The notes under the pieces are model-generated. The model searched no databases and was not told the DNA's origin. It worked only from the letters and a program-made list of their open reading frames with translations. DNA of 64,000 nt from Kappaphycus alvarezii (lineage: Eukaryota > Rhodophyta > Florideophyceae > Gigartinales > Solieriaceae), in contig NADL03000470.1 of the NCBI GenBank assembly GCA_002205965.3, positions 124,001 through 188,000 on the forward strand, given 5' to 3'. Positions 611-37,818 of this stretch are shown piece after piece. Positions within the stretch are counted from its first letter, which is position 1. Each line of letters starts with the position of its first letter. The position numbers and the translations under genes are program-made.

Positions 611-798
611 ATTGTTCTTTGTTTGCAGAACAGAGAAACCTTGACGAAGTAAGCGAAGAATTTACACTTTCTGAGAGAGCAGAAGGCGAGTTCTCGTTTT
701 TCCGGGTCTGTTTTGTTGTGTGGGAGGCATTTTGTGCGATCAGCGTTAGTGGACGAGGGGTCATTGAGCTCGATATGGACAATTAAGCCGTTCTTTAA

Positions 799-836
799 CC
801 CCCGAAATCTATGGGGTACCCAGCGGTACCCCTGAA
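799..836 (+). repeat. left terminal inverted repeat of the piggyBac-like element
   Basis: C-rich start, then GGGGTACCC and GGTACCCC in inverted arrangement. It pairs with the repeat at about 4698-4737 on the opposite strand. TTAA precedes it. Confidence 0.7.
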
Positions 837-954
837 AAAAACGTCATTTTCCCATTCCGGTTCCCCTTTTTCACAAGGGGTACCGCGGGTACCCCATAAT
901 CTCAAACTGGTGCCCCATAATCAACTCGCCCTTTGCCACGGCTGTCCTTGCCTC

Positions 955-1078
955 TTTGCCTCCTTTGCGCGCGCTTCGCCGTTTGGTGCGCGCTTCGCCT
1001 CAAAAGCGCGCGCTTTACAACTTGCTTTGAAAGCGCGCGAGAAGCAGCGCTTCACCTCGAAAGCGCGCGGTTTTCGAA
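955..1078. repeat. cluster of GCGCGC blocks near the left end of the piggyBac-like element
   Basis: At least six GCGCGC-containing blocks lie in about 120 bp, most as AAAGCGCGCG or its complement GCGCGCTT, at irregular spacing. No similar cluster is seen near the right end. The open frames that cross this stretch on both strands are explained by its base composition. It may be a transposase-binding or promoter region of the element; this is inference from position only. Confidence 0.5.
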
Positions 1079-1175
1079 CAATGGGTGCGCTTGCATAGTG
1101 CGCTCGAAGAGCCCGGACTTCTGGAGCTATGCGCACTTCCGGGTGTGCGTGAAACATAAACTTCTATGAAACGGT

Positions 1176-2506
1176 ATGCACAGTCTTAATGTACCCGACT
1201 TTGAGTCTCGACAAGCAATCACGAGACAAGCAACGCAACACATGGCTGGCACCGATGATGATGATTTGGATTCGCTCTGCCCCGATACGGAGCTATTCAA
1301 TAACGACAACTACGACGAAGAAACCGCTCCGCTCTCTTTGATCAAGTTCCGATACACGCACATACAACGGCACAAATTCTAACCACCCAAGTAGATGATT
1401 GCGCCATGATGGAGGTCAGAAGGGTGTTCAAGGTATTGAAAGTGCGGCTAGCACAACAGTTACGGATACAAGAGATCCAACTATCCTCCTTGGAAGCGGA
1501 CTCTCTATTTGACGTTTCGTTTTCTGGCACAGACAAACAGGAATTACTGCGGATCTGCAACGTGAGTTTAGGTGAACTGAGTCTACCATCATGCCGCGGA
1601 GAGGAACTGAATGTAGTGGTTGGAATAGTCGCTGCCTGTGGATTCTACCGAACATTGTTTAACTATCTCACTTGTGCGAAGAGTAGAGATGTGTATTCGT
1701 TTGGTTCTGTCAATGTTCACAGAGTGAGAGAAATTATAACGGCTGTAGAGGTGAGTGGAACGGACTTTGCTGGTGTTCTGCCTAATATTTAGGGCTCTTA
1801 TGATCGCGACATCAACAGCTTAGGGGAATCATTTGCATCGACATGTTGTCCATTATTTTATGTCCCCGGGATGAGCTTTTCCGCTGATGACGATGTGACA
1901 AGGCTGCGAAGTAATAAGTTTTCTCCAAGTACTGGAATTCGACAGGTAAATCTTGACAAAGAGAGAGGTGCACAGCAGACGTTGTCAAATCCACTTACTA
2001 ACCTCACGTTGTGTTCCAGATATGCCGTTTTTCACGAGAAAGTAATATCTACAATTGCGACTCTACTTCGTCGTGTGCAAGGCCATTCTGAGGTCTCATC
2101 TTGTATGTTTAGGAATGCGTGTACCCTTTTATTCATAAGGGTTACATGTCTGATGACTTGATTTCATTGTTTCGTGATATAGGAATGCGAATTATAGGCA
2201 AGCAGAAGAGCGGACAAAAGGCCCCATTTACGTTTGGGGATAGCAATTTTTATGAAGGGACCAGGAGAATTCAGGGGTTCGGTATACTTTCAGCGTTTTG
2301 GGCTGAGAGAGAGCACTCGAAGAGAAAAAAGTCATATCATCTTGCACTACGAGAAGCAAGCACAACGCGTGAGCGAGTTGCAGTGTTGGGCACCACTCGG
2401 GCGGACCTGGCGAGTGACAAGTGGTTGGCAAAGAGGGTGGTACATCAGAACAGGCTTCGATCTTCGAGTAAATTCCAATAGTCTCCAGCGAGAAGGAAAG
2501 CCTTAA
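1176..2506 (+). pseudogene. N-terminal half of the piggyBac-like element's gene, not recognised in detail
   Basis: Several plus-strand open stretches in different frames fill this interval: an acidic segment at 1176-1382 with a DDDD run and many D/E residues, one at 1406-1792, and overlapping ones between 1871 and 2506. An acidic N-terminus is usual in piggyBac transposases. I could not identify the first two catalytic aspartates with confidence, so this part is placed by position between the left terminal repeat and the better-preserved 3' half. Frame changes occur several times. Real introns cannot be ruled out: a TTACAG/GTATTTGG junction near 2522 would make a plausible acceptor. Confidence 0.35.
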
Positions 2507-4337
2507 AAATACACCCTTACAGGTATTTGGCGATCGACTGCAAGAGGAGTTTCTTTCCAATCTTAACCCCATCACCAGAGCACAGTCCCATGGAGATAAG
2601 CTGTGGTTTTTAGCAGGAGGACTTCAATTTATTTCATCGACGACGCTCTCGTTTCTTGAAGCCGCTGCAAAGCATAAGCCCTATGAGATTCTGAGAAGCA
2701 CAGAATTTGAATGCGTCTGCCTTCTAGTCGGTATTACTCTATCCAATGAAGAAGAATTTGTTACGCCTATGACAGTCATAGCAATGGGGGATAGTGACAA
2801 AATGAATTTGCCGGAACTCAAAGCTGAATGTAGGGCTCGAAAAATTACGGGGTTCTCGAGCAAAACGAAGCAAGGAATGAGAGAGTTGTTAGCGCATTGG
2901 AAGCAGGATTTTGCATATTGTCTAATGTTCCCAGATTTGATTGTTCATTTAGCACTACAGTCGTGGTGTTTCAAACCGCGAAGGGCCAGTGAAGACATGC
3001 GTGCAGGTTCCTGAAATGAAGTGACGTTGAGACAAATCCTCCCAGATTTTTTGTTGTCACACGGTAATCTCAGAACACTATGCGCTCGGTCTTACGGTCT
3101 CGTGCAACGAAAGGGGACTCCATTTGCGCACATGTCCACATCACCTGACATGGTGGCTGTGCTCATGAAGAGAGAAGGGCATTCAGGAGGGACTGAAACA
3201 GGTAATCGGCAGGGTGAGATGGAATGGAGTACTGCTATAGCCGTTTGTGAGTTCAAAACGTTTAGTGGAAACGATGCATTTTCAATGGCTTATGATGTCC
3301 GCGAGACGCACGGAACATACTCTGCGCTTCTCATTGGGAGTGGTAGCATGCAACAAAGCTTGCCCTTGTCTAAAGGTGAATTAGAACTGCAATCGAAATA
3401 ATTCCATTCTTTGGTACCATGGAAGCAGTACAGATACCAACTTCTGCACCAAGCTGCTGTTTGCCAGTCTCCAGTATTATTTCTAGCAGCTTCGAGAAGC
3501 GAGATAATCTACGCTGTACGTGTCTACATCGCACAGTACATTGCAGATGCAATTTGTACTCTAATGCGAAGCCTCCTGCAGAGGTACATGCCGTGGTCTT
3601 CGATTCCTCTAAAGCCAGTGCCTGCGTTCAAGAAACAGGTGTACAGTTTCGGAAAAGAAAGTCACTCTGTACAGTCATATCTAGGATTGGCGTCCAGTTT
3701 TCATGAGATGGTTCGGCAGTGCGGCCCAATACAAGTGGCACACTATATACGACCGAGGCTGGTTGTCGAGTGGAACATACACAAAGGTGGTACAGACGTA
3801 ATGTCTTGAATGATTTACAACTGCCCATTTCGAATGTCAAAGCTCGCTCCACGAGGTACCATAATCTGGCGATTTATTGAAATGCTTTTTGTAAACGCAT
3901 ACTATATGGCACGAGTTTTACGAGTTGATGAATATCAGTATGATTCTTACCAAAAATGGAGAAGAACCTGTGCGAACTCTGTCACGTTCAAAATGGTGTT
4001 GAAAGACATATTTCAATCTCTACTCAAATCTGTTGAGGTCAGGAAGAGTTACGCAAAAGAATGCATTGAGAGTGAGACAGAATTAATGATTGGAAACCAA
4101 TGTATATCAAAACCTTTGCGATACAAAACAGATTCTGCTCGAGCCAGGAAGATGGATGTAACTCGACTAGAATATGCAAAACCACACATACCTATTCTGC
4201 ATAGTCGTGGTCGTATTTCAAAAGAAAATGAAGTTTCTGGAAACCCGAAATGGTGTATTGTGTGCTCAAAGACCGAGAACAAAGGCAAAATAATTGTTCG
4301 AAGTGGTCATGAAACTCGCTACTCTTGTTCACAATGA
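2472..4337 (+). pseudogene. YqaJ-like PD-(D/E)XK nuclease region followed by piggyBac-type transposase C-terminus
   Basis: One reading frame stays in register from 2472 to 4337, broken only by stops at 3012-3014 (TGA), 3399-3401 (TAA) and 3807-3809 (TGA). In order it shows four regions. First, KLWFLAGGLQFISST at about 2598-2642 resembles the W..R....T.S opening of YqaJ-type nucleases. Second, a SAP/HeH-like stretch, LPELKAECRARKITGFS, lies at about 2808-2860. Third comes a PD-(D/E)XK pattern, with SPD (D at 3147-3149) and EFK (3249-3257), and then YRYQLLHQAAV at about 3429-3461. Fourth is the piggyBac-like block WNIHKGGTDVMS, with D at 3795-3797. After the 3807 stop it continues with a conserved K/R-rich and NAYY segment and ends in a Cys pair region (WCIVC near 4252, YSCS near 4322). 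The nuclease and transposase calls rest on motif reading only. Confidence 0.55.
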
Positions 4338-4697
4338 AGTGTGTTTTTGTGTTGTGTGATTCGGCGGAAAGTTCGCCACCGAGCTCAGAGAAGTTGTTGA
4401 AAGGAGTGGCATGAGCTAAAGAAGCTATAGGATGCTGCAATCATTTTATATTATCCGGGAGTAACTACTGTTAACGGGTACAATATTGGGTACCTCTTCT
4501 ATGGGGCACCGTTTTTACGAAGGGGTACCCGAAGTCTAGGTGTTCATTATTGTATTTTTGGCTATGAAATCCTCGCTGTTCTTTGAAATTATTGTTATAT
4601 GTTATTGGTATACCAAAAGCTCACATCAAGAGGCACAATAAGGTTCGCAGTTGACACATCCAATTCATTGCCAATGGAACAACTGCCAGGTACAAAT

Positions 4698-4737
4698 CAA
4701 GGGGCACCCGCGCAGTACCCCTTAAAACTTTCCGGGG
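4698..4737 (-). repeat. right terminal inverted repeat of the piggyBac-like element
   Basis: Reverse complement of the left end with a few changes and a 2-3 bp length difference. It is followed by TTGA at 4738-4741 in place of TTAA. Confidence 0.7.
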
Positions 4738-4782
4738 TTGATCGCCTAAAGAGGTATGCACTTAAGGTGTATCAGCTCACTA

Positions 4783-5221
4783 GTGTCTATTGGACCGTTG
4801 TCCTCATATGAGGACTACTTTTAGAAGTTGTTTTTCAATACAAATGTTTCTCCCTCAGCGCTTTTCTTGTCCCTCCTCATTATTTTATGAGTGTAGATGA
4901 CCGATTAAAACAAACTTTTCAAGATTGTTGACCTCGGTGAAGGCCAGAGCAGTTTTTCCTCACCAGATTCCGCTCTTCGCAAAAAGTTGTGAAAACAGCT
5001 TCATTTTGGAAGGAAATATAGTTCGTATTATCGTGGGGGTTTCAGAAACGAGGGCGCATGTACAGTAAGAATTAATGTACTGTAACTCAACAAAGAAACC
5101 TTTTTTGTAGTAAAAATTTCGGGCTTCCAAAACATTTACCTTTCCAAAATGTAACGGAAACTGTCCTCATATAAGGACAAAGTTTGCCTCATATGACAAC
5201 AGTGCTTGGACGGATAGACAC
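4783..5221 (+). mobile_element. 439-bp non-autonomous TA-flanked element (Tc1/mariner-like MITE), copy 1
   Basis: It begins GTGTCTATTGGACCG and ends CGGATAGACAC. It is flanked on both sides by TA (4781-4782 and 5222-5223), the target duplication of Tc1/mariner-type elements. Close inside the left end is the perfect palindrome GTCCTCATATGAGGAC, with degenerate copies near the right end. It has no coding capacity. Two better-preserved copies lie at 20774-21213 and, inverted, at 21682-22122. This copy differs from them by scattered substitutions, so it is older or of another subfamily. Confidence 0.8.
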
Positions 5222-5618
5222 TATTTGTGCAGTTCTGCTTTGGAGGAAAAGCGCTGGAACTGGACTCTTGACAGGGAAACTTTTTAACAGTACTGTGCAG
5301 ATCCTGTAGTGATGTGCTTTCATGAGAGAAGCTGATTCAGAGCTGGTAAATCTCATCACGGGTACGTCACCGATGACACGTGTCTATCATCTCGCCACGT
5401 GTGGAAACCATGCCAAGCTTCCGGGGAGTGCGATATGAATGATTAGTGATGGCCAGTACTATTTGGCAATTGCATGGTAGGGGCAATTGACAGTAATTGC
5501 AATTTTGAAAATTGACAGTAAATAAAATTGTGTAAAAAGTATTGCCACTGGTAGGGGCACTTGTCGTGGGAGGTGAACAGTGGGGTACTTGTGAAAATAT
5601 TCCTCTACCAGTGCCCCT

Positions 5619-6225
5619 ATGGCTCCAGATGCTAACCCTGAAGATAATGGACACATTGCAACTGTCCAGGGGCGAAAAGAAGCTCCAGGACATATTCCTG
5701 CAGCTGTGGTACTATTAAGTCGGTTATATAGTGGCCAAGCACGTCCCTTTCTTGAATTGCATGCAGTTCTGTCCTCCCCTGAGGCAATGCAATCTGGTTT
5801 ATACTGGGTACTCCCTAAGTATACGATATGGTGGCCCATAGCCCTACTCGAGGCAGTTAAAGCCGCTTACCCATCGGAGATCCAACAGGTTTACAGCGAG
5901 GGACCTGCAGTACTAAATGCGCTCATACGCTCTAGTGAATTCATGAAGCGTTTTTTTGCCAAACGCGTGCACTCTTTGGAACCATTTATGCAGGCCTTCG
6001 TGGAACAAGAAGATGCAAATTCCTGCTTCCAGATTCCGCGCAACTGCTTCGGGGTATGCAAGTTAGGTAGCGGCCCGAAACTTGTCCTCGAGCTCCCACA
6101 ACGCGGCCATGGAGGTCGCCCAGACATCAAGGGGCTTAAGGAGAACGGGAGCATAGACTGTTATGACGCAACCGTCATTCATGCCTTGACCCTTGCCCGC
6201 TTCCTGTCTCTTGCACGATATTTGT
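5619..6225 (+). pseudogene. REL-type LINE fragment, first part
   Basis: The reading frame at 5619-6230 matches the LINE at 22.2-26.2 kb in two blocks. TIWWPIALLEAV through NCFGVCKLG (about 5825-6070) corresponds to the stretch after the reverse-transcriptase active site (CAVWWPTAPPSV ... TCFGVCRIN). It is joined directly to GRPDIKGLKENGSIDCYD near 6115-6165, the restriction-like endonuclease core (RPDIKALGENGGTDYYD in the better copy). About 770 bp present between these blocks in the better copy are missing here. The first 70 or so codons are not recognised. Confidence 0.65.
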
Positions 6226-6885
6226 TCTAGCCCCTTATGTAGGATAAAAACCCTAGGGGATGGTTCGTCAGCAGCAGATTTTAGTATGGTAGAGCAAACA
6301 CGAACCTAAAGGGAACGATTAAACCAAAGGGATAAAAGTGGCCAAGGAAGCAAGGGATTCAAGGCGTTCAATGGGCGGGCGGTTAACCAGCTGGGGTAAA
6401 GTCATCCAGGTTGGTGCCGATGGCTTGGAGACGCGAACAATTTTGGGGCCTTAGGTTGCTTGCCTTTTTACCTTCCCACTGAGGGTTGACCGCATTATAT
6501 AACCTAAAGGATGTGCCGCTAGCTAGCTCCACTGTAAAGGCTCTACCGCTCCAGAAGGGCTCTCAACCAACCATTTGGGGGATAGATCAAAAATCCAGAG
6601 GCGGGGATCAAGGTGAGCCGCGAGCTCCCCTTCGCCGACCGACGACGGTGCGTACCCAAGGGTTTCTTGTGACATCTCCATGAAGGTCCTTACTGTACGC
6701 CCGATCCTTACAGTAATCTCCGGCTGGACTCCAAAACCTATACATGGCATGCCCACCTGGACGTCCAGCAATGCACGTCCTCATCCCTGCTGGATCATTA
6801 CACCCGAACCCCTCAGCTTACAGGATCCCTCAGGGCGGCGCACCATGTTACTCCCGGCTCCCCAACCTGCGGGATATCACAATAC
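6226..6885. other. about 660 bp of unidentified sequence inserted into the LINE fragment
   Basis: The LINE endonuclease domain stops at SLAR near 6225 and resumes with LNHARPGKDT near 6889. In the better LINE copy these are adjacent, separated by only a few residues. The DNA between has no recognisable gene and no clear terminal repeat. It could be a short unknown element, a solo LTR or filler DNA. Confidence 0.5.
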
Positions 6886-7304
6886 TACACCTTAATCATG
6901 CCCGCCCTGGCAAGGATACTTGTTTTGCCGAACTAATCCGAGCGAAGGGTCCTGGGTATCGCTTCACTGCCCATCCACTCTTCACATTGCGGGGCTGGTA
7001 CCAAGCTACTCGGGACTTCGCCAACCGGGTTGCGACTGGCATTGTCGCACATGCAGCTGTTACGATTGGTGAGTCGCATCAAACACTGTTCGAACGCCTC
7101 GCGGCGAGACTCGTCCAGATTAACGCCATTTGTTTGTTGGGGCACGGATTGAGCGGAACTGAATACCACAGCAGGCTGTCATCAGAGAACCTCTCACCTC
7201 AGGATAAATCGAATATCTCTTCCAACAGTAAAAGCACCCAAAAATTTCCCCCTCAGGATGAATTAGTCTCCACGCTCATTAGCCCTCGTCCCTATAATCT
7301 CTAG
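6886..7304 (+). pseudogene. REL-type LINE fragment, C-terminal part
   Basis: LNHARPGKDTCFAELIRAKG and then GWYQATRDFANRVATGIVAHA match, almost residue for residue, the C-terminus of the LINE protein ending at 26092. The frame runs on past the matching stop point to 7304 with an unmatched tail. It belongs to the fragment that starts at 5619, from which the 6226-6885 insertion separates it. Confidence 0.75.
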
Positions 7305-10935: not shown

Positions 10936-12675
10936 TAGTGATGGCCGGTAATAAAAAAAATTTTTTCCATGACAGGCACTTAATAAATGAAAATATTCTA
11001 TTACCAGGTAATTTAATTCCCTCTCGGACCAAAACAGGAATTATTACCTCATAAGTCATTTATGAAGTCATAGTCATAATTATGACTATGAGTTCATATT
11101 TTAATGACCTAGGTAGTCATAATTATGACCAGCTAGGTCAATAATTCCGCAAAGAAATTAATTCCCCTAGTCCTGACGAGCAGAATAGTCCCGCACTGTG
11201 CTATACTGTACTGTAAAGTGCTTTAAATTACAGTGTAAGGGCTAGCATAAAGGTGCAACATGCAGTCATGCACTGAACTGTACAATCCAATACATGATTC
11301 CATGTTGTACTGTACAACATGGAGAACTGTACTGTACGAACAGTACATTACAGTACAGTACGATCTACAGAGTAAGGGTTCGAACCCAAAGAAACAGGAC
11401 CGCCTGAATTCTTTCAACAGTCCCTGGCCAATGCACCCACTTGCAGAAAACCGTCAATGCGGCCAGTAAGGCCACATTTGTAATATGCAATGTATATATA
11501 CAACTATTGGCATCAAAGTTCTCAACAATCGACCCGTGGTCGAGTGGTTAAGCCTAAGTCCTGGGATTCTGGATAGTCATATCCTTTCTCGCAGCAACTT
11601 AGTTGGAGCGGTGATTTAATTTCCTGATTCCGAGATCGTTCTCAGATTACTGTCATAACGTAGTACAAGGAAGTTGTTATCTAGATGCCAACTAAGAAAT
11701 GCCGGAGATTGGAGTGCTACTCATAGTAATATGTCGCCAGAAGGGCGATTACAATTTTTAACCTGTTTTGGTGAGTAAAAGGCTGTTTTTTGAATATTTT
11801 TACAGGACTCACTACAACAAACACTACTTTTATAAACAGGAGTGCATTAAACATGTGAAAAAGAATCTTGAACTTACTTGAAAGAGGTAAGTAGAAGTTA
11901 TTTATATGGATATCGATAAACATCTATTTTTACAGGGATTGGGATAGAAAAGCAGTGTATATGTGTATAAACCGAAGCATATATCGTCAAATTAGCGAGC
12001 GCTATTTAATTTTCCGCAGCTAGCGTGACGTATAATAGGTATTAAAAAGATTTCAAATAAAGAATTTATAACATTCTCAACATAGCGGATCTGATTCAAT
12101 TCGTCTGAAAGATGTTTTTGTCTCTTCAGATAGTCTCCAACTTTCAAAAGACATTCGGTAAGACCAGCTGTCAGGCAGGATCTCTTCTTGGATCTAATTG
12201 ATCCAGCAACGCTAAAAAATCTTTCAGATGATGTGGAGGAAGAATTAGGAGTAAAAACAACTCGTGCGACTTGAGATACGATTGGGAATTTGCCTTCATA
12301 CTTCTTCCAAAAATCAAGCGGTTCCATTTCTTTTGCAGAGGCCGCCATAAACTTATAAAGGTTAATTTCAGAATCAATGGAGGCATCAACTTTATCCCCA
12401 ATTTGCACATCTTCATCATCTGAATCGAAACTTGATAAAACACCCTTCTTTGAATGTTCGGATGCCTTTGCATTTACAGCATCTGACCCTGAGTAAACCG
12501 TGATAGTGAAGTAGTTTTCGGCCAATTTTGAGATAAGCTTCACAGCAGCCGTGTCAGAAAGGGAGTAAGCATCAACTCCACCCAAGAAAACCTTGTGCTT
12601 CATTTTGAAATACCTGGGAGTCAGAAGAGTTGCAACGTGAGCGCAATGCTCTGCCATTGGGCACTGAAGGCCCAT
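10936..12675 (-). mobile_element. hAT transposon fragment inserted in Copia-1
   Basis: It starts at 10936 with TAGTGATGGCCGGTAATAA, close to the ends at 5444 and 13924. It contains a minus-strand hAT transposase C-terminus (11992-12699). No matching inverted end is visible near 12675, where Copia sequence resumes, so the element is truncated on its 5' side, probably together with some 450 bp of Copia sequence. The central part (10980-11990) is non-coding and includes AT-rich DNA with short TCATAATTATGA-type palindromes and the TACTGTAC cluster at 11190-11360. Confidence 0.6.
11190..11360. repeat. cluster of TACTGTAC / GTACAGTA motifs
   Basis: At least six copies of ACTGTAC or its complement lie in about 170 bp, some in inverted pairs. 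The same motif is clustered near 15935-15985, 20575-20597 and 31090-31300. Confidence 0.6.
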
Positions 12676-12699
12676 CAACGTTCTAGGCCACCCGACCAC
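11992..12699 (-). pseudogene. hAT transposase, C-terminal dimerisation domain
   Basis: The minus-strand frame gives HVATLLTPRYFKMKHKVFLG, the ALLLDPRFK-type block of hAT transposases. It later gives the dimerisation signature LDFWKKYEGKFPIVSQVARV followed by SSSTSSERFFSVAGSIRSKK. The N-terminal BED finger and catalytic half are absent. The first 10 or so codons near 12699 come from neighbouring Copia DNA, and the frame opens with GTG, so the given start is not a natural one. Relation to known families is by motif; the Ac/Tam3-like dimerisation block is clear. Confidence 0.82.
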
Positions 12700-15158: not shown

Positions 15159-15980
15159 TCAAAGGCTGAGAAGAGCGACAATGGCAGCATCCTCCGTGCT
15201 GCCTGCCATTATGGCATGTATAGCTATAGCAGCCCCGATGCTGATGAATATCAGCGGCGAGCTCAGTTTCGGTCTGCCCGGCATGTGCACCGCGCCGGGC
15301 TCCTCAGCTAGGCGGTGCATCCAGTAATACCTCGCTGTTCCTTGCAGTGTGGCGATGATCGCTAGAGACGATATTAACCCGGCGATGGCCTGCACATAGA
15401 TGTCATTTCCCTCGTTGGAGAGGTTTTCTAGGCGCAAGGAGGCAATTGCTGCGGTTTGCAGCAGCACCGAAAAGCGGACCCAGGCGAGGAATATGCGGTC
15501 GTTTGACAGATGGGTAAGTATTCTGCCGTCCTCTGGAAGGACTTTCCGGGTGTCGATCGACAATGCCTGGTTGAGGTACTGAATACTGTCTAGTAGAGAG
15601 CGCCTGTCTCTCAGCTTGGTTATACCCAGCGTCTTGCGCAGTTCGACGGAGTTAAGTGACAAGAGAGTGCTGCCTGTCACTTGCTGAGCTCGAAACACCG
15701 GAATATACGAGCTCATCCCAATGGCAACGAGCCATTCTGCAACCTCTTCTGTGCTGTCCATTGACTGGAAGCAAGTGGCGCTAAGAAGCCCTCCGCGCAC
15801 AGACTCCAGTGAATACGGTGCCATACCAGGGTGTCTGCAGAAACTGCCCAAGTTGCGATGATGCAGTTGGTGATACTCCGAGTCTTCCAAGCTTACTCCT
15901 CTGGTTTCGGAGGTTACTGAAGATCCCAAGTGCAACGTACTGTACTGTAGTACCGTGCCGTACCGTATGTATCGTACCAA
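15159..15980 (-). CDS. SAM domain + DUF202 membrane protein
   Basis: Intact minus-strand frame of 273 codons. Residues 76-136 form a SAM domain (STEEVAEWLVAIGMSSYIPV, later LRKTLGITKLRDRRSLLDSI), a helical bundle used for protein-protein or protein-lipid contacts. Residues about 150-270 fit DUF202: the signature LSNDRIFLAWVRF at 158-170 and three hydrophobic helices at about 163-183, 197-213 and 241-259. DUF202 also forms the membrane part of VTC polyphosphate polymerase subunits, so location in a vacuolar or other inner membrane is plausible but inferred. The first 50 residues derive from the TACTGTAC repeat and look non-native. ATG at 15824-15822 (MAPYSLESV) is the likelier start, giving 221 residues; ATG at 15761 also keeps both domains. 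No introns, no breaks. This is one of two convincing host genes. Confidence 0.8.
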   Translation of the reverse strand: MVRYIRYGTVLQYSTLHLGSSVTSETRGVSLEDSEYHQLHHRNLGSFCRHPGMAPYSLESVRGGLLSATCFQSMDSTEEVAEWLVAIGMSSYIPVFRAQQVTGSTLLSLNSVELRKTLGITKLRDRRSLLDSIQYLNQALSIDTRKVLPEDGRILTHLSNDRIFLAWVRFSVLLQTAAIASLRLENLSNEGNDIYVQAIAGLISSLAIIATLQGTARYYWMHRLAEEPGAVHMPGRPKLSSPLIFISIGAAIAIHAIMAGSTEDAAIVALLSL

Positions 15981-15990
15981 ATACCTTACA
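15930..15990 (-). promoter_or_regulatory. TACTGTAC/GTACCG motif cluster upstream of the SAM-DUF202 gene
   Basis: Several overlapping GTACTGTACTGTA, GTACCGTGCCGTACCG and TACAGTA units lie about 110-165 bp upstream of the preferred start at 15824. No clear TATA box was seen. A role in transcription is inferred from position and from a similar cluster upstream of the AhpD-like gene. Confidence 0.35.
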
Positions 15991-16097
15991 GTATTTTGTA
16001 CATCCTTACTTCATGTATTATAAAAGGCGTACAAGCCAAGCTGACAGTATAACCTAAGATAGTTGAAGTTCGTCGCTGCCCAGCTTGGGAGTACGCG

Positions 16098-20473: not shown

Positions 20474-20773
20474 CCTGCGAGGCGGGGTGCAGCGCAGCCA
20501 TGGGGAGGATGAGGTTGTGGTGTTGTTGTGTGTGCTTTGGTTCTTGGAAGTGGAGACAGAAAGGTACGGTTTTAGAAGATTGGGTACCGTACAGTATCAC
20601 CGCTCGATATGGAAAACACGCCAATTAAAAATCGAATGCAATTTCCGTAGCTTCACGGCTTGTGACAGATTGGGAGTTCTTTCCAGGAAATCAGTTGGAT
20701 CTAACAGCACGCTGAGACAGATGGTCATTTCTAACGCAGCCTGCTTGTCAACCGGTCTACCAGCTACTTTCTA

Positions 20774-21213
20774 GTGTCTATTGGACCGTTGTCCTCATAT
20801 GAGGACTACTTTTAGCACTTCTTTTTCAATACAAAATTTTTTACCTCAGCGCATTTCTTGTCCCTCCGCATTAGTTCATGAGTGTAGATGGCCGATCAAA
20901 ACAAACTTTTCAAGATTGTTGACCTCGGTGAAGGCTAGACCAATTTTCCCTCACCAGCTTCCGCTCTTTGCAATAAGTTGTGAAAACGACTTCATTTTGG
21001 AAGGTAAAATAGTTCGTATTATCGTGGGGGTTTCAGAAACGAGGGCGCATGTACAGTAAAAATTACTGTACTGTAACTAAACATAAAAAACCTTTTTTCC
21101 AGTAAAAATTTCGGGCTTTCAAAACATTTTCCTTTCCAAAATGTAACGGAAATTGTCCTCATATGAGGACAAAGTGTGCCTCATATGAGGACAGTGCGTG
21201 GTCGGATAGACAC
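20774..21213 (+). repeat. arm 1 of the TA-element dimer
   Basis: Full-length 440-bp copy: GTGTCTATTGGACCG start, CGGATAGACAC end, GTCCTCATATGAGGAC palindrome near both ends. Confidence 0.85.
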
Positions 21214-21681
21214 TAGTGTCGTGGTCGGATAGACACTAGTGTCTATCCGACACTAGTGTAGACACTAGTGTCTATCCGTCCAGTGTCGTGGTCGGATAGA
21301 CACTAGTGTCTATCCGACACTAGTGTAGACACTAGTGTCTATCCGTCCAGTGTCGTGGTCGGATAGACACTAGTGTCTATCCGACACTAGTGTAGACACT
21401 AGTGTCTATCCGACACTAGTGTAGACACTAGTGTCTATCCGATCACTAGTGTCTACACTGATCACTAGTGTCTACACTAGTGTCGGATAGATACTAGTGT
21501 CTATCCGATCACTAGTGTCTACACTGATCACTAGTGTCTACACTAGTGTCGGATAGACACTAGTGTCTACACTAGTGTCGGATAGACACTAGTGTCTATC
21601 CGACCACGACACTGGACGGATAGACACTAGTGTCTACACTAGTGTCGGATAGACACTAGTGTCTATCCGACCACGACACTA
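21214..21681. repeat. core of nested terminal-repeat fragments
   Basis: Dozens of units of GGATAGACACTAGTGTCTAT and the variants CACTAGTGTAGACACTAG and GATCACTAGTGTCTACACTG. Every join falls at TA. It is locally palindromic throughout. There are no unique spacers, so it is not a CRISPR array. Confidence 0.85.
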
Positions 21682-22122
21682 GTGTCTATCCGACCACGCA
21701 CTGTCCTCATATGAGGCACACTTTGTCCTCATATGAGGACAATTTCCGTTACATTTTGGAAAGGAAAATGTTTTGAAAGCCCGAAATTTTTACTGGAAAA
21801 AAGGTTTTTATGTTTAGTTACAGTACAGTAATTTTTACTGTACATGCGCCCTCGTTTCTGAAACCCCCCACGATAATACGAACTATTTTACCTTCCAAAA
21901 TGAAGTCGTTTTCACAACTTATTGCAAAGAGCGGAAGCTGGTGAGGGAAAATTGGTCTAGCCTTCACCGAGGTCAACAATCTTGAAAAGTTTGTTTTGAT
22001 CGGCCATCTACACTCATGAACTAATGCGGAGGGACAAGAAATGCGCTGAGGTAAAAAAATTTTGTATTGAAAAAGAAGTGCTAAAAGTAGTCCTCATATG
22101 AGGACAACGGTCCAATAGACAC
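21682..22122 (-). repeat. arm 2 of the TA-element dimer (inverted)
   Basis: Reverse complement of arm 1 over its full length. Confidence 0.85.
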
Positions 22123-22644
22123 TAGCTGGTACACACGCTCAAGCACTTGCAATATAGGTCCCGCCAATGGTTTGATTACAAATACAGAGGACTCCCAACC
22201 GTTCCATTACTCGCAGTAAACATCACATTTTCTCACTTCTTCTCCCTCAATTTCAGCGATTTTTTTGGATATCCACATCTCCTCCTGGACAAGCTCTACT
22301 CAGCATCTCCGTAACCCTCCGCTACTGCACAACTTCCGCGATCAGTGACGCGCCCTGGTCTTCCTCGTCACCGAACCGCACTTCTCAAGGTCTGAACTCC
22401 GTTGGCAAGTTCAATATTTCAAACGGTCACTTTTTCCTAGTCCTGCATTGCTGGTCATTCATTAGCGCCACGTGGCCACCTGGTATCAAGAGGCCTTGGT
22501 GACATTTACAGTATCGGAAAGGGAGGTCTGAAGTGCATACCGACCGTACAGGACAGGAAGTCCCGAGGATTGGCATACAGTATTGTAGTAACTCGAATCG
22601 CTTCGTAGGGTGCACTGCTTTTAGGGCCTCAGGGAAGGGAAAAT

Positions 22645-23062
22645 TTGTTACCAAGAATGCCCTCTGCCAGTACAAGTGCAGACGCAGTGGCCCATCACAA
22701 ACCAGGTGATCCCCGAACATGGTTATGCCCCAAACCACTTCGTCCGGCGTCTGAGCGCCCCCTACAGCGCCCTCACCACTGTCCCTTGGGTTGTGCATCC
22801 ATCACGGCAACTACCGTGCATGGGTTGGTTTCACATCTCCGCCAAATGCACAAACCCGGCAAGAGCTCCACCAGTAACCACCCCAAGCGCACGCAGGTTC
22901 CAAGCCAGGCCAGCTTATCTTCTTATGGATACTGGTACTGTTATGCCCACAAACGGTACATGACCTCAACGGTTGGGCGTAAGCTTCAAAATGGCCTTCA
23001 TTCCTACACATATCGGCCATGCCCGGAGTGCGGCGACAGGTTCTCAACCCCTCCTCGGTACA
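22645..23062 (+). pseudogene. LINE-2 N-terminal zinc-finger part
   Basis: Frame from 22645. CPLGCASITATTVHGLVSHL continuing to RQMH is a C2H2-type finger, as found at the N-terminus of R2-like LINE proteins, where it binds the target DNA. A second candidate begins with CPECGDRF near 23019-23042; its histidines (VHSALTHAASLH) lie in the next frame, so the frame switches at about 23045-23060, within a C-rich stretch. I chose the frame by these Cys/His patterns, not by the start codon, which is uncertain. Confidence 0.55.
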
Positions 23063-24698
23063 CTCCGCTCTTACCCACGCAGCTTCGCTCCACTCCTCGA
23101 GCACCATCTGCATCTCGTGTACCGAACGAGGTTACACCCCTGAGGCAGCTTCAGCCTCAACCAATCCACCCGAACCACAGCCCATTCCGGATGCCACTCC
23201 TCCTCCGCCTTTGCGCACCACCGCTCCCTCCTTGAACGGCCCGAGGAGACAGCCGCTTCCCCCCTTGCACACAATCTGCACTACTCACGTCCCGCTAGCG
23301 CAACACATACCGCGACGTGAACGTCAGCGGATTTCAAGGGAGCTAGCTCTTGTCCTTGGGGAATGCGCGGACGCACCACATGGTTCTCCTCAAGCTGTGG
23401 AGGCATTCACCAAGTTGTTCCTATTCCCGTCCGCGATCCTTGCCAATCCCAAGCCCTCCACCCTCTCAATCCTCGTTCCGGGCACAGCATCAAATTCCCG
23501 TATTTTTGCTGAACGTATTCAACTATGGCGTGATGGACAGTACGAAACTTTGATGCGAAGGGCAAACGCCTTGGCAACATCGCGCCCGTTGCATAAGGCA
23601 ACGGAAGAGGAACAAGCGGGGATCAACAAACGGCGCGCCCTGAGGCTTGCAAAGGAGGGCGCTTACGGCAAGGCAGCGCGGGCGCTGGGATCTTCGGGGA
23701 TCGCATGCCCCTCTGCAGAGGTGGTTTCCATTCTTCGGGAGAAACACCCACAGCGCTCTCCGACCACGGAATCGTACCAACCCGCTTCCCCTGACTCGTT
23801 GCCGGCTTGCCCCCACTTCACTCCAGAACTCGTTCTCCGTTGCGTTCGGAGCTTTCCAAGGGGTAGCGCCGCAGGGGGATCCGGACTCCGCCCAAACCAC
23901 CTCGTCGAGCTTTTGCAGGTCCCACCAGTTGTCAATGGTGGACGGAGCTTGCTAGCTTCTCTAACTAGTGTGGTCAACTTGCTAGCCAACGGGAAGGCCC
24001 CTACGGCTATATCGGCATGGATCGCAGGTGCGCCGCTCACAGCACTCCTAAAACCAGACGGGGGAATCAGACCGATCGCCGTGGGCGAGACCCTCCGTCG
24101 CTTGGTGGGAAGATGTTTGCTGACTTGCATTTCCGAGAAGGCTTCCGAATACTTCCAGCCACTACAGTTGGGAGTAGCAACGTCAGGAGGATCTGAGGCA
24201 GTTGTCCACGCTGTACGGCGACTTTATGAGGAGCATGGCGAATCGGCAGAGTATGCACTGTTAACCGTTGACCTTCAAAACGCATTCAACCTGGTCAGCC
24301 GAAGTGCGTTTTTGAAGGAGGTCGAGGAGAGGTTCCCGGAGCTCTTACCTTGGGTCAATTACACGTACGCGGTAAACCCGGGTCATCTGTGGTGTGGGGA
24401 TGATATGCTCCGGAGCGTGGTAGGCGTGCAGCAAGGGGATCCTCTGGGTCCACTTTTATTCTCCCTTGTGCTGCAAAAAGTAACGCGGGAACTGAAAACC
24501 CGCCTGGAAAATGTGGCCGACACCACAGGCAGGCCTTCTCTACTCCTTCAGCTATGGTACTTGGACGATGGGTATATAGTGGGCACCCATGAAGCCATTC
24601 GGAGGGCACTACAATTCCTCTCTTCCGCGGAGGTGCGTGCTTTGGGTTTGCACCTCCGCATGGATAAGTGTGCCGTCTGGTGGCCAACCGCTCCCCCC
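23063..24698 (+). CDS. LINE-2 reverse transcriptase part
   Basis: Open frame from 23019 to 24827, matched to the family up to about 24698. It shows HKATEEEQAGINKRRALRLA, the palm start (PNHLVELL), LTVDLQNAFNLVSRSAF (first catalytic Asp), GVQQGDPLGPLLF, and the active site LWYLDDGYIVG with YLDD at 24558-24569. The enzyme copies LINE RNA into DNA at the nicked target. After MDKCAVWWPTAP the frame leaves the family at a run of seven C (24693-24699), and the protein continues in another frame. RT residues look intact. Confidence 0.78.
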
Positions 24699-26092
24699 CG
24701 TCTGTTCAGCAGTCCTTCCCAGCCGACCTTCGCCAGGACTGTAGTGAAGGGACAAAAGTGCTTCGCGCCCCAATCGGATCGGACCTATTCGTGGAGCGCG
24801 AGTTCTCAAAGCATGTCGCGTCACTGAAGCCTCTCCTCAGCGCTTTGTTAACCCTGGAGGACACTCAAGTAGCTCTCCATCTACTACGGACCTGCTTCGG
24901 CGTATGTCGCATTAACTACCTCCTACGTGTAGTTCCCCCTCATTCCACTGCTAAGAGGGCCGCGGAATTCGATTCCGCTGTTGAAGCTACACTGCGGGGG
25001 TTGATGGGCGGGGTTCTGGACAGCAACACTTTTCGGGAATTACAACTCCCTGTGGCGCCCTTCGGCCCCCTCAAGCCAACTTTTGGCATTGGGCTTCGCT
25101 CTGCGAAGCTCACTGCGGCGGCTGCGTTCCTTTCCTCCGTGTCCCTCACGCGTGCCCTTTGCTCTACCCTTCTGCCTGTGCTACCGAATACTGCTCTTCA
25201 TTCATACAAATCCGCAGTTCGGGCGCACGATGACTGGAAGACACAAGTGGCACCCGAGAAGGTGGTCCATTTCGCGGCTATCGACTCAGTGCAGAGGTTT
25301 GGGCAGGGCCAACTCGTCCGCCCAGTTGAGGAAAAGGCCTTTGATGCCATGCCGAAGGGGGATGAGAGGACTGTTGCATTCCGAGCCTCGTTGTCAGTGG
25401 AGGGTTGCAAGGACTGGCTGTCATGCCAACCGGCTCCGGGGTTGGGTACCTACATCCCGGACCGCAATTACAAGACGTGGTTGCAGTTCTATTGCAGAGT
25501 GCCACTGTTTCCTCCAGCCTCGAAATGCCACAAAGGGGGATGCACGACCCTCATGGATCAGTATGGTGACCACGCGCTGTGCTGTGCCTATGGATCCACA
25601 CGTGGGTGGCGGCATAACTCGCAGACACGTTTGTTTGCTGCAGATCTCTCCAAAGCTGCCCGACACCCTGTCCTCGAGCCGCCACAACCCGGCCATGCAG
25701 TTCGCCCGGACATCAAGGCGCTTGGAGAGAACGGGGGCACGGACTATTACGATGTAACCGTTATCCATCCCCTGGCCCCCGCCCGCCTTCCCTCCCTGGC
25801 GCGATGCCCACTCAAGCCCCTTAACCATGCTCGCCTGGGCAAGGACACTCGCTTTGCCGAGTTGATACGTTCCAAGGGTCCTGGGCATCGCTTCATTGCC
25901 CTTCCACTCTCCACGTTGGGGGGCTGGCACCCTTCCGCTCGGGACTTCGCCAACCGGGTTGCGAATGGCATTGCCGCACGGGCAGCCGTTCCGATTGCTG
26001 ATGCGCAGCGAACATTGTTCGCTCGTCACGCGGCGAGACTCGTCCAGAATAACGCCAGTTGTTTGTTGGAAGGAGTCTTGAGCGACACTTAG
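24699..26092 (+). CDS. LINE-2 C-terminal part: thumb, Cys/His knuckle, restriction-like endonuclease
   Basis: Open frame 24668-26092, meaningful from about 24699 (SVQQSFPADLRQDCSEGTKV ...). It contains the stretch around TCFGVCRINYLLR, a Cys/His knuckle with CHKGGC and QYGDHALCCA near 25530-25590, and RHN-like residues. The REL core RPDIKALGENGGTDYYDVTV is at about 25704-25762. The end, FANRVANGIAARAAV and VLSDT, stops at TAG 26090-26092. It should nick the target site. It is joined to the RT frame only by a one-step frame change at the C7 run, which could be a real mutation or a length error. Confidence 0.75.
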
Positions 26093-29187: not shown

Positions 29188-30764
29188 CTACTCTCCCGGT
29201 CTTTTCCGTGGAATCTTTGTAAACATGGGTGCCCTTTCCCCCAGCTGCGAATCCAACTTCGGTTTCTCCGAGCAACTTGGATAGTAGAAGATGTACAGCT
29301 TTTGCAAAAACGATAAAAGCGAAATCCAACAGATCAACTCAACGGTGTGCTCAGGCCTCAACTCCTTAGTAGAATCCACAACCGCCTGTGTAGTCTTGGT
29401 TGGTGCAAACGAGCACGCCTTCGCAATATACAACATCCGAACCTGCATTTCCGAAAACGGTGCGTCCATTAACGCTGAGTCGGTGAGTGCACTCATAAAC
29501 TCAGAACTGAAATCGGTGTCTTCCTTGGAAAACTCATACACCGAGTTTATGGCATCCTCATCATAATAATCCACCATCAACTTTGTCATCTTTCGAAATT
29601 CCTTCGCCATCAGCCGATTACGGTTGACGCCCGCGAACACAATGCCCATCAAGTACTTTGTGTCTGGCTCAATACCACATATAATGGCATCTAAATTCAA
29701 ACAAATAGACTCTGCGATAGCCCTAACGACCCTCGTGTGGTTCAACAGGGCCAGTACCGGAAAAGAATGCCCCACAACTTGCGTAAGATAATCGCCAATC
29801 GCCGGCCACGACTTTGGAATCTTTTTAGTCGCCTGCGTATCATACGAAATAGCAGCAGGCATATGCCGGAGCATGGACAAATTAGTCAAAAGGGTATCGC
29901 CCCTTGTCGGGGCCGGATCAACCGCCTGTAGATAATTCTCTGGCTCGGTAACTGTATGCTTACCCTGCGTCCATCCGCTCAGCTCCAATAACTCCGCACT
30001 CTCCTCAATTGCTGCCTGCTCCATGTCTGTACCCAGGGAGCTCATGAACGTTGTCAAAAAGCCAACCATTGCAATCGCAAGTACAATCCATTCGACATTG
30101 GAAGGAGACAAGTGGCGGAACAAATTACGGCGATCTTCCTCGATGATGTGATTCGGGAAAGAAGACATATTAAGAGCGAGATCTACGACAGCAGCCTCCC
30201 TCTTCGACAAACTCCTCGAACCCGTCAAGGCAGCGGCATCGACACCTCGACGCAGCGCAAAGTTGCACGTATGCAGCGAGCAGTATGCACACTGCGAGCT
30301 CCTAGCTGCGTAATACGTGGCCATCCCCACCAAATCGACGGGGGCAGCGACGCCCCAAAGCAGGAATGGCATGTTTATGGCGTTAGGCACGAGAAGATTG
30401 TAGGTGGTAAACGCGGGTGGGAAAATTTCCATGATCCCGTCTGAATTTGACACGACGCCGATCAAGGCACGTACCAGGACGAGGATAGAGTGATAACGGT
30501 TATCGAGATCGTCTAGGGAGACAGCGTATGGTGAGAGAACGTCGGCGATGGCTTTAGGGGGGAGGCGTCGAGAGATTCAACGGAGGAGATGGCGGAAGAG
30601 AGGGCGGAGGATTTGGCTGAGGGGGAGTGGTAGTGGTGTTTGTTAGGATGGACGGGTTTGATGGAAGAGGGGGTGGGGAGGGTGGTGGAAGGGGGGAGGG
30701 TGGGCGTAGAAAGCGCTGATGTGGAGCGTGAAGTCGAGGGTGCATGCTGTACGGCCGGGTCCAT
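29188..30764 (-). CDS. AhpD-like (carboxymuconolactone decarboxylase-fold) protein, frame interrupted at a G6 run
   Basis: The main frame (30555-29188) has the AhpD-type redox signature YYAARSSQCAYCSLHTCNFA, with CAYC at about 30291-30280 and His three residues after the second Cys. Such proteins reduce peroxides or disulfides through the CxxC pair. Before it come PFLLWGVAAPVDLVG and a long helical N-terminal part. After it come a hydrophobic helix (VEWIVLAIAMVGFLTTF), a further 300 residues of mostly helical sequence and a basic end, with stop TAG at 29188. Upstream the frame stays open to about 30575 but has no ATG. A Ser/Pro/Thr-rich leader with ATG at 30764 reads into it one frame off, the switch falling at GGGGGG 30557-30562 (plus strand). 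Either that run is one base wrong or the gene is broken. The domain call is firm; substrate and location are unknown. Confidence 0.72.
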
Positions 30765-31238: not shown

Positions 31239-31807
31239 TATCGGTGATAATGTACTGTACGCGAGGAGTTAAGATACTCAATCCCAGGATGTACTGTACG
31301 GTACTATAATAGGCATTACAGTGCGTTACCAACTACAGTACAATTTGGAAACGCTACAACCGCGGTCGAGCCCGTAACGTGAACAGAATGAGTGGCTTAC
31401 TGTAGCCTGGAGGCTTCGCAAGGGCAAGCATGTCGAGTCATAGATTAATCGGGGCTGATTGTGACGACCATTTGGGCAACGCTTAGATTGCACCAGTAAA
31501 CGAAAGGGCACGAGCGGGAGAGGGGTCTGAAGAATGGACTGGAGTTGAACCTGTATCGGGATCAAATTGTAGGCTACAAATACCATAATGAATAAGGTTC
31601 ACGAAAGGAGAAACAAAAAGGAGCAAGGATGAATGCATAAAACACAGAACGCTTGACTATACCAGTCTCACTTTTTAACATCTCGTTTATCACGCGGGGT
31701 ACGCCTGCTGTCTCATTGAGCGATAAAGTAAAGCACGGTTCGGTTCTACGCCAAGTACGTAATCGATAACACGCTCCGGGATCATACCGATCCCAGTCTG
31801 ACCGACA
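31239..31807 (+). repeat. 5' LTR of Copia-2
   Basis: About 569 bp, matching 37255-37818. It carries TACTGTAC motifs and CTATAATAGGC near its start, which could serve as a promoter. The extreme first bases read TATCGG against TGTCGG in the 3' copy. Confidence 0.88.
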
Positions 31808-32337
31808 ATCATGATTACAGGTTAGACTCTGGCCCTCAAGCCAGGATAATAGTAATATATCGATAGGTCGGCAAGGTCCGAAAGAAGAAGCGCAAGACGA
31901 AAGCTGGTTGGATGAATATTTTTCTGAATTTCGCGCGGAAAAGGATTTTTTCTACGGCTCCAGTCGAAGTATTTGAGTTTTCCAAGCTATACCAGACGGA
32001 CAGTATGGACACTATATTAAGCTCCTGGTGTCACCACACTCAAGGAATCAGGAATAGTTCAGCAATCCCAACTCAGTCAGTCAATCGCATTGACGGCAAC
32101 ATGAGACGCGGCAGGAAGACTACACCGAGGGAAAGAAGTGCGGGTGGAAACCCATTTGAAGCATTGACAGATGAACAGACTACCGCAAGACCATCGACCA
32201 CTGAAATAAGGAGCGAGGCTAACGCTAACTTGCAGACCCCATAAATGCAGAACAACCCCCAGCAGGAGTAGCCAGCCGAGGCCGAGATCGCTGAGCAGCC
32301 ACAGCAAGTTGAAGCCGAGGGAATATCGCATGGAGGA

Positions 32338-34605
32338 ATGAACCCTATTAATACCGGTAAACCCCAAGCTAAGAGTGCAAAACAGGAAGAGCTTGTGTTC
32401 TCAGACAACCCGGTGCTCGGCACTAACTTTGTTTTTGAATCGGAGAAAGAACCAACTCGATTGTCTTCTGTGTTTGTACCACGAAAGACGCAAGACACGA
32501 TGGGAGAATACTACTTTGTGCACCAAATCCGCCTCATATTGGCGTTGGGAGGTAAGGAACTGTCCGCAGCGGACTTACTGGATGACATTCGTGCCCACAT
32601 GAGTGTGCATGATATATTCCACCCGGAAATACTGCGGAAACCTATCTACTACCGCCGGTTAGGATTTTTGATCAGAAAATACCAGGTGGCTATGGATTCT
32701 CCTCTGGCATCGGACAAGAACGCGCGGTACGCTCATTGCATTGCAAATGCATTGTACAGTGATGATCTGTTTGAACAAGAACTGGTGGCGGCCAGGAACC
32801 TAATCAACCAGCAGCCGTTCCAGCACCCCCACCGGAATGCAGAAAGCAGTGAAGCGAAGACTATAGCATTGGACCCCCGCACACTAAAAGGACCTACAGA
32901 GCCCATAGCAAATACACAGCAGAATTTGATGCCCACAAGGGCGGGTATTGTTGGAAAGCAAGCAACCAACTACAGGCCGTCACCTGGTGTGCCTGCCCTA
33001 CAACTCAATGAGGCTGTGCACCCTAGCCGTGAGCCCTGTGGTGAATCAGCTGCAGCACCATCGAGTGCAGTCCAACAGTATGGGAATGGAGGATTTGATC
33101 GTAAATTGACCGGGCAACACTCGTCATTCCCAGATCCGGACCCCAGTGACGACGATGACGACGACACCGATACCGATGGCGACTATGGACAAAACAATCG
33201 GAATCGCGCTCCCGATCGTCGAAGGCGCGACAAAGAGACAAAAAGTGGTTACTCTCAGCCATTGGGCCTTGACGAAGCTCCGAGGAGATTCTTCGACATG
33301 TACAAGGATGGCAAGAACTGCTTCGATGGAACAGACGATGAAAAATGGCAGCCACACTTGGCGACCATGCTGCGCCTAATGAAAAGCGCAGGAATGTTTG
33401 AATCGCAGCGCATACAGATATTACCCTTGACGTTGAAGGGAACTGCAGAGATGTTTTTCAATACACGAGTGGATGCTGTATGCGAAACATTTGAGGCTGC
33501 AATATCAGCTTTTACAGCCCACTACAATGGCCCTGAGACACAACAGCTCGTGAGGGAGCGTCTCCAGGCCCTCAACATTCAGGACTTTGTTCAAGAGACA
33601 GGCTCGGAGATTAAAGCTCTGAAGGCAATAACAAATGAGATTGACAGGCTATACCTGTTGACGGAACCTGAAGCGCAGTCAGAGTCTCACAAAATCAGAT
33701 ATTTAGTCGGCGCTGTACGAGCACGACCTTTGAGCGCTAGTGTCATCAGCGATCCGTCCAAGAAGAGCGAGTACAAGACAATAGAACGTGCACTCACCAG
33801 CAAGTTATACGCATGGACATCTTCCCAACCAAAACATTCAGATCAACGAATCCGACAGGAGAACATGAGTCGAGCGACAATGGGGCCAGCAACCTCAAAC
33901 AATGAAAGGCCGGACATATTGCACTATCAATATGGCAGGCACCCCCAGACAGTGCGTACCTCTTTCGGACAGAAGGCAGGACCGCGAAAAGGTAGCACCT
34001 CGCCTTCGCGAGTCGTTTTACCCGGTACCCCCATAGGTCGCGATAGCAAAAATATCAAGTGCTTCGGCTGCGGAAGGTTGGGATATCGAGTAAGGAACTG
34101 CCGACATGGTAGTGCGGCAACGGGGTTTGCTCATCGCGCAAGAGATTTCAACGAGCGCGGCGGACGGTTGCCCAACGACTCGGAAGGGATACGTCAGGTT
34201 ATGTTTGCGCTTGCCGCCAGTGCTGATGGAGGCTATATCGTTGAAGTCGACGAAGAATCAGTTGAGCAGTCCGCGGTTGCAGAGGCATTCTTGAAGCATT
34301 GCACGATGAGCAGAGCCTACCCTACGTACCGGGTGAGAAAGACACCCATATCAATCCGACGCGATATACTGAGCTCGGTGCACCAATTCCTCACCCTAGT
34401 CTGTCCAACGACGGCACCAAAAATGAAAGCCCGGCAAACATATTTACTACGAACTTCTGCAAGCACGCTAGCACTGCACTTGCCGCTCAGGAGGAGAGTC
34501 TGGCCCATTGCTTCACAATCAATCCTTGTGAAAATACCATATTTCGGACATCAAGTCAAACGCTGCCACATATGTCAACGCCTCAACAATTTTCACAGAG
34601 TCTGA
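32338..34605 (+). pseudogene. Copia-2 gag region
   Basis: Long frame with a central gag domain (RRFFDMYKDGKNCFDGTDDE, then a helical stretch to about 33830) and a Cys-rich knuckle region IKCFGCGRLGYRVRNCRHG at about 34053-34109. It is preceded by an acidic DDDDDTDTD linker near 33145. Fossil part of Copia-2. Confidence 0.72.
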
Positions 34606-37254: not shown

Positions 37255-37818
37255 TGTCGGTGATACTGTACGAGAGGAGTTAAGATACTCAATCCCAGGA
37301 TGTACTGTACGGTACTATAATAGGCATTACAGTGCGTTACCAACTACAGTACAATTTGGAAACGCTACAACCGCGGTCGAGCCCGTAACGTGAACAGAAT
37401 GAGTGGCTTACTGTAGCCTGGAGGCTTCGCAAGGGCAAGCATGTCGAGTCATAGATTAATCGGGGCTGATTGTGACGACCATTTGGGCAACGCTTAGATT
37501 GCACCAGTAAACGAAAGGGCACGAGCGGGAGAGGGGTCTGAAGAATGGACTGGAGTTGAACCTGTATCGGGATCAAATTGTAGGCTACAAATACCATAAT
37601 GAATAAGGTTCACGAAAGGAGAAACAAAAAGGAGCAAGGATGAATGAATAAAACACAGAACGCTTGACTATACCAGTCTCACTTTTTAACATCTCGTTTA
37701 TCACGCGGGGTACGCCTGCTGTCTCATTGAGCGATAAAGTAAAGCACGGTTCGGTTCTACGCCAAGTACGTAACTGACAACACGCTCCTAGATCATACCG
37801 ATCCCAGTCTGACCAGCA
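37255..37818 (+). repeat. 3' LTR of Copia-2
   Basis: Direct repeat of 31239-31807. It ends TGACCAGCA and is followed by CATAA. Confidence 0.88.

Follow-up and report, generated by a model that had tools for sequence, protein, structure and literature searches.

Can a TTAA-targeting DNA transposase house a second DNA-cutting enzyme within its own catalytic domain? This question is raised by a locus in the stretch of Kappaphycus alvarezii DNA that we analyzed (64,000 nucleotides of contig NADL03000470.1, positions 124,001 to 188,000; hereafter the window, with positions counted from its first letter), where one element (Table 1) combines features of a piggyBac transposon with a coding stretch that resembles a PD-(D/E)XK nuclease. 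The reading toward which we lean is that of a decayed piggyBac-like, TTAA-targeting transposon in which the insertion-domain loop of the transposase has been expanded by a probable PD-(D/E)XK nuclease module. The case for piggyBac descent is fairly strong, the case for the nuclease identity of the module is moderate, and the case for any particular role of the module is weak.

To delimit the element, we searched the whole window for TTAA-like sites, allowing one mismatch, and paired those lying 1.5-6 kb apart if one or both were an exact TTAA. In all, 123,989 pairs were considered, and a 36-nt alignment was made for the 1,621 that passed a 9-nt prefilter. The pair at 795 and 4738 had the top terminal-repeat score, 14, with the runner-up at 11. 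The left end reads CCCCCGAAA-TCTATGGGGTACC and the inverted right end CCCCGGAAAGTTTTAAGGGGTAC, and both termini begin 5'-CC (CCCCCGAAA and CCCCGGAAA) rather than 5'-RR. An earlier interpretation of this DNA made from its letters alone (the sequence-only reading) had claimed ends with TTAA-type flanks; the ends can indeed be placed and the left flank is TTAA, with the right flank departing from it by one mismatch, TTGA. Target site and terminal letters are those of the piggyBac superfamily, and piggyBac termini themselves start 5'-CCC. Just inside the termini lie clusters of the motif GGGGYACC, with eight of the ten copies in the window falling in the element's two ends, against 2.8 expected across the whole window, and these clusters would fit subterminal repeats bound by a transposase.

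Within these ends, frame 3 is open over 2520-4336 to a degree that is not chance, with three stops in 605 codons compared with a mean of 32 and a minimum of 14 in 2,000 order-1 Markov resamples. Five equally open places were found elsewhere in the window, in or beside long reading frames that are mostly retroelement-like. The sequence-only reading had described a piggyBac-like element at 2472-4337 with its motifs in one register. The register stands, as the SAP-like helix, SPD, EFK, YRYQLLHQ, KGGTD and Cys-x2-Cys...Cys all share frame 3 from 2472/2523 to 4337, and has to be qualified by three internal stops (3012, 3399 and 3807); the extent does not, as this region is the C-terminal half only of a longer coding region. 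Two catalytic positions belong to the N-terminal half, which occupies about 1176-2467 and runs mainly in two frames other than that of the C-terminal half. A putative 42-nt intron in it preserves phase, intron candidates were also considered near 2090-2112, and the frame junctions are compatible with either a splice or a frameshift. Of two further intron candidates, removal of 1946-2019 (74 nt, GT...CAG) would cause a frame shift, and 2468-2522, checked by hand, fails to bring frame 1 into frame 3. Such intron-like gaps, together with the retroelement and hAT remains in the window, point to a probably eukaryotic host. At the other end, the stop at 4335 is followed in the same frame by further Cys codons (SVFLCC) up to a stop at 4398, so the original protein may have ended beyond 4335. 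Because of the internal stops and a His at the second catalytic position, the letters suggest that this copy is inactive.

To evaluate the piggyBac character of the transposase, we compared it with piggyBac of Trichoplusia ni (PDB 6X67/6X68), whose catalytic residues are D268, D346 and D447 (PMC7351741; published systems are cited throughout from excerpts of the papers). The first catalytic Asp position falls at codon 1886-1888 in YVPGMSFSAD, the counterpart of D268 in YTPGAHLTID, and the YxPGx5D arrangement keeps the T. ni spacing (alignment p 0.016 against T. ni and 0.007 against piggyBat, for segments picked by eye). The third falls at 3795 in KGGTD, within a P-x5-W-N-x2-KGG-x-D block of exact T. 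ni spacing that, likewise for segments picked by eye, gave a shuffle z of 5.5 with none of 2,000 shuffles reaching it against T. ni, and a weak likeness to piggyBat (z 2.1, p 0.04). Set against the superfamily block P...Y....GGVDxxD (PMC2533014), PRLVVEWNIHKGGTDVMS keeps P, GG and D, with W for Y, T for V and S for D450; it also retains the equivalent of N440, a residue that contacts a TTAA base in piggyBac (PMC7351741). The second catalytic position, assigned by its order and by the IGKQK and VAVLGTT that follow it, is the least certain of the three; VAVLGTT was paired by eye with VYLLSS 414-419 of T. ni. Downstream of the third Asp, by comparison with piggyBac, the protein presumably continues as a C-terminal helical region, and it closes with a Cys-rich end holding Cys-x2-Cys, His and Cys, then the stop and an in-frame CC.

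Scans of the window gave mixed results. On the negative side, a hidden Markov model (HMM) built from two piggyBac sequences put the chunk with KGGTD no higher than second among 2,130 (E 0.13), behind a chunk at 5761 that lies outside the element and matches a different part of the profile, and a separate run with a two-sequence HMM placed the stop-to-stop piece with KGGTD first, at an E of 0.43. On the positive side, five motif patterns each found one match in six frames of the 64 kb, all inside the element and in order, where at most 0.033 were expected per random window (60 replicates), a figure that applies to patterns composed after the sequence was seen. The element shares with piggyBac a TTAA-type flank, 5'-CC termini, the spacing around the first and third Asp and, less certainly, a Cys-rich C-terminus, and differs from it by a Ser at the D450 position, a His at the second catalytic position and the lack of a Pfam match. 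On these grounds the piggyBac-like assignment of the sequence-only reading survives in part.

What sets the element apart is the interval from the second to the third catalytic position. The insertion domain of piggyBac comprises residues 372-433 of the catalytic domain (PMC7351741), and in T. ni about 13 residues separate VYLLSS from P433, whereas in the element about 450 codons, small introns included, separate the end of VAVLGTT (2397) from the equivalent proline (3753). Since the first and second positions lie upstream and the third Asp of KGGTD downstream, the SAP-like and nuclease-like stretch is predicted to be inside the catalytic domain, at the site of the insertion domain; to describe the nuclease as standing ahead of the transposase C-terminus, as had been done, understated its position. 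The stretch holds a SAP-like helix that scores below the cut-off of the SAP profile (PF02037; E 0.017, 15.2 bits compared with 23.9), so the SAP-like call of the sequence-only reading is weak, although the helix does lie in the shared register.

Farther along, NE...SPD...EFK...YRYQLLHQ follows the order of PD-(D/E)XK motifs despite the decay of the copy. E, PD, ExK and Q form the motif set of the YqaJ / lambda exonuclease family (PF09588), and the insert shows them in that order by a post hoc pattern. In its loose form, D..ExK..Q, this pattern recovers 47 of the 64 phage YqaJ loci, has one match in the window, at 3147, where 0.1 would be expected in Markov DNA, and has one match in 76 further loci of bacterial, archaeal and viral origin (572,768 bases, six frames); being post hoc and allowing a wide gap between ExK and Q, it is weaker than these counts make it appear. 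A strict [ST]PD pattern found none of the 64 true YqaJ loci, and hence the loose pattern alone serves as calibration. The earlier proposal that this stretch is part of the element is plausible from its frame, its place within the terminal repeats and its motif order; if it is part of the element, the stretch is probably a nuclease, and we do not class it as YqaJ.

Several results weigh against this reading, on the transposase side as on the nuclease side. The catalytic triad of this decayed copy is Asp, His, Asp rather than three Asp, with the His at codon 2134-2136 in IHKGY, and the alignments around the second position were not significant (p 0.28 against T. ni and 0.13 against piggyBat), that of T. 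ni falling at an unexpected place. The translated segments gave no match to Pfam DDE_Tnp_1_7 or YqaJ at E values up to 5-10 which, with SAP below its cut-off, leaves the family names of the sequence-only reading unconfirmed. The element's stretches were not among the top matches listed for the D1 and D2 HMMs, and an unbiased scan of 5,118 chunks with single piggyBac sequences, in which the segments chosen by eye do not stand out, placed it at ranks of 7 to 61 at best; the third-Asp segment of T. ni, at rank 29, was the one segment to fall where expected. There is no second copy of the element in the window. For the nuclease-like stretch, the spacing from the K of EFK to the Y of YRYQ is 57 residues, compared with 18-19 between ExK and Q in three phage YqaJ matches, and PHROGs held no match to it, nor did NCBIfam to the C-terminal half or a PDB sequence search to that half or the C-terminal piece; sub-threshold hits to SAP, Rho_N, PadR and fn2 were all that profile searches returned overall. 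We also built an HMM of 60 phage YqaJ sequences (one query plus 59 of the 64 loci, leaving out those with 150 aa or fewer before a stop) and, run with filters off, it gave the stretch a negative bit score that ranked within the noise. Alignment to phage YqaJ with hhalign was no better than for shuffles, 55 of 100 of which reached its score, and a single-sequence AlphaFold model had a predicted local distance difference test score of 38 and a top Foldseek match of E 0.45, which is not usable.

Such results are what one would see if the insert were a long, lineage-specific insertion-domain loop of a piggyBac-like relic with a DNA-binding or structural part to play, and SPD...EFK a coincidence: neither profile nor fold searches point to a nuclease, the patterns are post hoc and the spacing from ExK to Q is wide. 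We nevertheless consider a non-nuclease loop unlikely, given that the motif order has been retained through decay and that the loose pattern has a single match in the control DNA (573 kb, entirely bacterial, archaeal or viral). The nuclease-like stretch might also have come from elsewhere, as a fragment of a YqaJ-bearing transposon that interrupted a piggyBac-like relic; ISL2EU elements do carry YqaJ as a separate open reading frame (ORF; PMC4482050, PMC9179366), and the window holds the remains of several transposons. A nested second element is nonetheless improbable because a single frame, followed from 2523, takes in the nuclease-like stretch, KGGTD and the Cys-rich end alike, and because no short repeat listed for the window brackets the stretch with copies near 2400-2520 and 3500-3750.

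Two further explanations concern the identity of the element as a whole. Kolobok transposons likewise duplicate TTAA, and some of their lineages, KolobokP and KolobokD, carry nucleases (PMC9587614), so a Kolobok with an accessory nuclease could resemble what we describe; with Kolobok termini being 5'-RR (PMC9587614) and those of the element 5'-CC at both ends, and with a KGGxD block of the piggyBac type, we regard this as very improbable. Slightly less probable still is that the locus is no transposon but the remnant of a host gene between chance repeats, as its single copy in the window might suggest, since the terminal pair came first among all pairs considered and the subterminal motif clusters accompany it.

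The preferred reading, a piggyBac-like transposase with a probable nuclease in its insertion-domain loop, can be set beside transposons that recruit accessory nucleases, as ISL2EU (YqaJ), KolobokP (His-Me) and KolobokD (DEDDh) do. In ISL2EU (also PHIS), likewise a DNA transposon, the YqaJ exonuclease is encoded by a separate ORF whose function is called unknown (PMC4482050); its target is A|AT|T and its termini usually GG (PMC4482050, PMC9179366), neither of which is seen at the ends of our element. KolobokD and KolobokP resemble the element, with its probable nuclease, in adding such an enzyme within a TTAA-targeting superfamily and differ from it in nuclease fold as well as termini; KolobokP encodes its nuclease as a separate protein on the opposite strand, proposed to act in multimerization by cleavage and crossover, and that of KolobokD is proposed to trim intermediates (PMC9587614). 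ISL2EU and KolobokP are thus, as described in these sources, two-protein systems from which a built-in nuclease would differ.

In the mechanism we envision, intact relatives would cut and join ends at TTAA through a DDD site as piggyBac does, and the module, a SAP-like helix followed by a probable nuclease of the YqaJ/lambda-exonuclease type, would occupy the loop that leads from the insertion domain's last strand to the third-Asp helix. Insertion-domain loops of piggyBac line the channel for hairpin and target DNA (PMC7351741), and the module may protrude from the insertion domain toward this channel, bind the DNA at the flanks, and nick, open or resect it during excision or integration. That a piggyBac-like lineage exists whose RNase-H catalytic domain harbors, in the interval from the second to the third Asp, a complete PD-(D/E)XK nuclease with a SAP-like DNA-binding helix is a possibility that we hold tentatively, a little on the side of doubt. 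Were it true, each monomer would have two distinct DNA-cutting centers facing one hairpin/target channel, the nuclease would be physically tied to strand transfer such that accessory-nuclease function could be tested on one protein, and the insertion-domain site would be shown to tolerate an entire additional enzyme, a useful property for the design of transposase tools. Confirmation by intact relatives would make this a new design of piggyBac-like transposase.

Relatives were sought in viral, plasmid and prokaryotic DNA and in no eukaryotic DNA, such that their absence says little. Exact short peptides, which reach close relatives only, found none in viral contigs for the C-terminal piece, the C-terminal half, the D2 piece or the nuclease piece, and tblastn of the C-terminal half found none in phages and plasmids. 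The pattern WNxxKGGxDV occurred at 7 loci in viral contigs and 69 loci in genome contigs, with no tblastn match below E 0.04, and an alignment of two piggyBac sequences picked out 31 stretches in viral contigs, none of which was confirmed. By title, no published piggyBac element with YqaJ was apparent in a literature search. Similar long proteins may occur in oomycete protein sets, and if they do, the family may already sit in databases without a description.

Table 1. Coordinates of the element and of its parts within the window.
Feature	Position	Strand	Remarks
Whole element	799-4737	+	3,939 bp, bounded by left TTAA and right TTGA
Left flank (target-site duplication)	795-798		TTAA
Right flank	4738-4741		TTGA, one mismatch to TTAA
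Left terminal inverted repeat	799-843	+	about 37-45 nt, imperfect
Right terminal inverted repeat	4693-4737	-	
Left subterminal GGGGYACC cluster	813-916		5 copies
Right subterminal GGGGYACC cluster	4503-4708		3 copies
Possible start, ATG and acidic stretch GTDDDDLDSLCPDTELFNNDNYDEETAP	1176-1382	+	frame 3; start putative
N-terminal coding stretch	1304-1750	+	frame 2; no Pfam match
Putative 42-nt GT-AG intron (GTGAGT...TTTAG)	1751-1792	+	contains in-frame TAG
Coding stretch with YVPGMSFSAD	1793-2089	+	frame 2; first catalytic Asp position
Coding stretch, IHKGYMSDDL...IGKQK	2113-2467	+	frame 1; VAVLGTT at 2377-2397
SAP-like helix KMNLPELKAECRARK	2799-2843	+	sub-threshold Pfam SAP
In-frame stop TGA	3012-3014	+	
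PD-(D/E)XK-like series	3015-3452	+	NE 3015, SPD 3141, EFK 3249, YRYQLLHQ 3429
SPD	3141-3149	+	frame 3
EFK	3249-3257	+	frame 3
In-frame stop TAA	3399-3401	+	
YRYQLLHQ	3429-3452	+	frame 3
Third catalytic Asp block PRLVVEWNIHKGGTD	3753-3797	+	T. ni P433...Y439 N440...D447
KGGTD	3783-3797	+	frame 3
In-frame stop TGA	3807-3809	+	
Region after third Asp, FRMSKLAP...IEMLFVNAYYMA	3810-4200	+	first part covered by T. ni alignment
Cys-rich C-terminus, WCIVC...GHETRYSCSQ	4248-4397	+	stop 4335, then SVFLCC

Just right of the element, a 445-bp unit (4780-5223) has 91% copies at 20771-21215 and, inverted, at 21680-22125, the latter two within a foldback palindrome with inner repeats (20771-22125). Decayed fragments at 5595-6237 and 6890-7140 are related to ORFs of a non-LTR (long terminal repeat) element at 24.6-26.1 kb; a reverse transcriptase (RVT_1, E 2e-14) at 22983-24827, continued by an overlapping frame at 24668-26092, is of the non-LTR type by eye. 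On the minus strand, 11992-12699 encodes a hAT C-terminal dimerization region (E 7e-15), 15159-16010 is an ORF that encodes a SAM domain and, after it, DUF202, lies beside probable retroelement frames and is possibly a host gene, and 29188-30576 is an open frame of 462 aa with no Pfam match at E up to 0.01. Farther right, 551-bp direct repeats at 31253-31803 and 37264-37814, which are 98.7% identical, are probably the two LTRs of a young element ~6.6 kb long, and between them lie an ORF at 32272-34605 with a weak match to Ty3 capsid and another at 35843-36655 that by eye resembles a copia-type reverse transcriptase.

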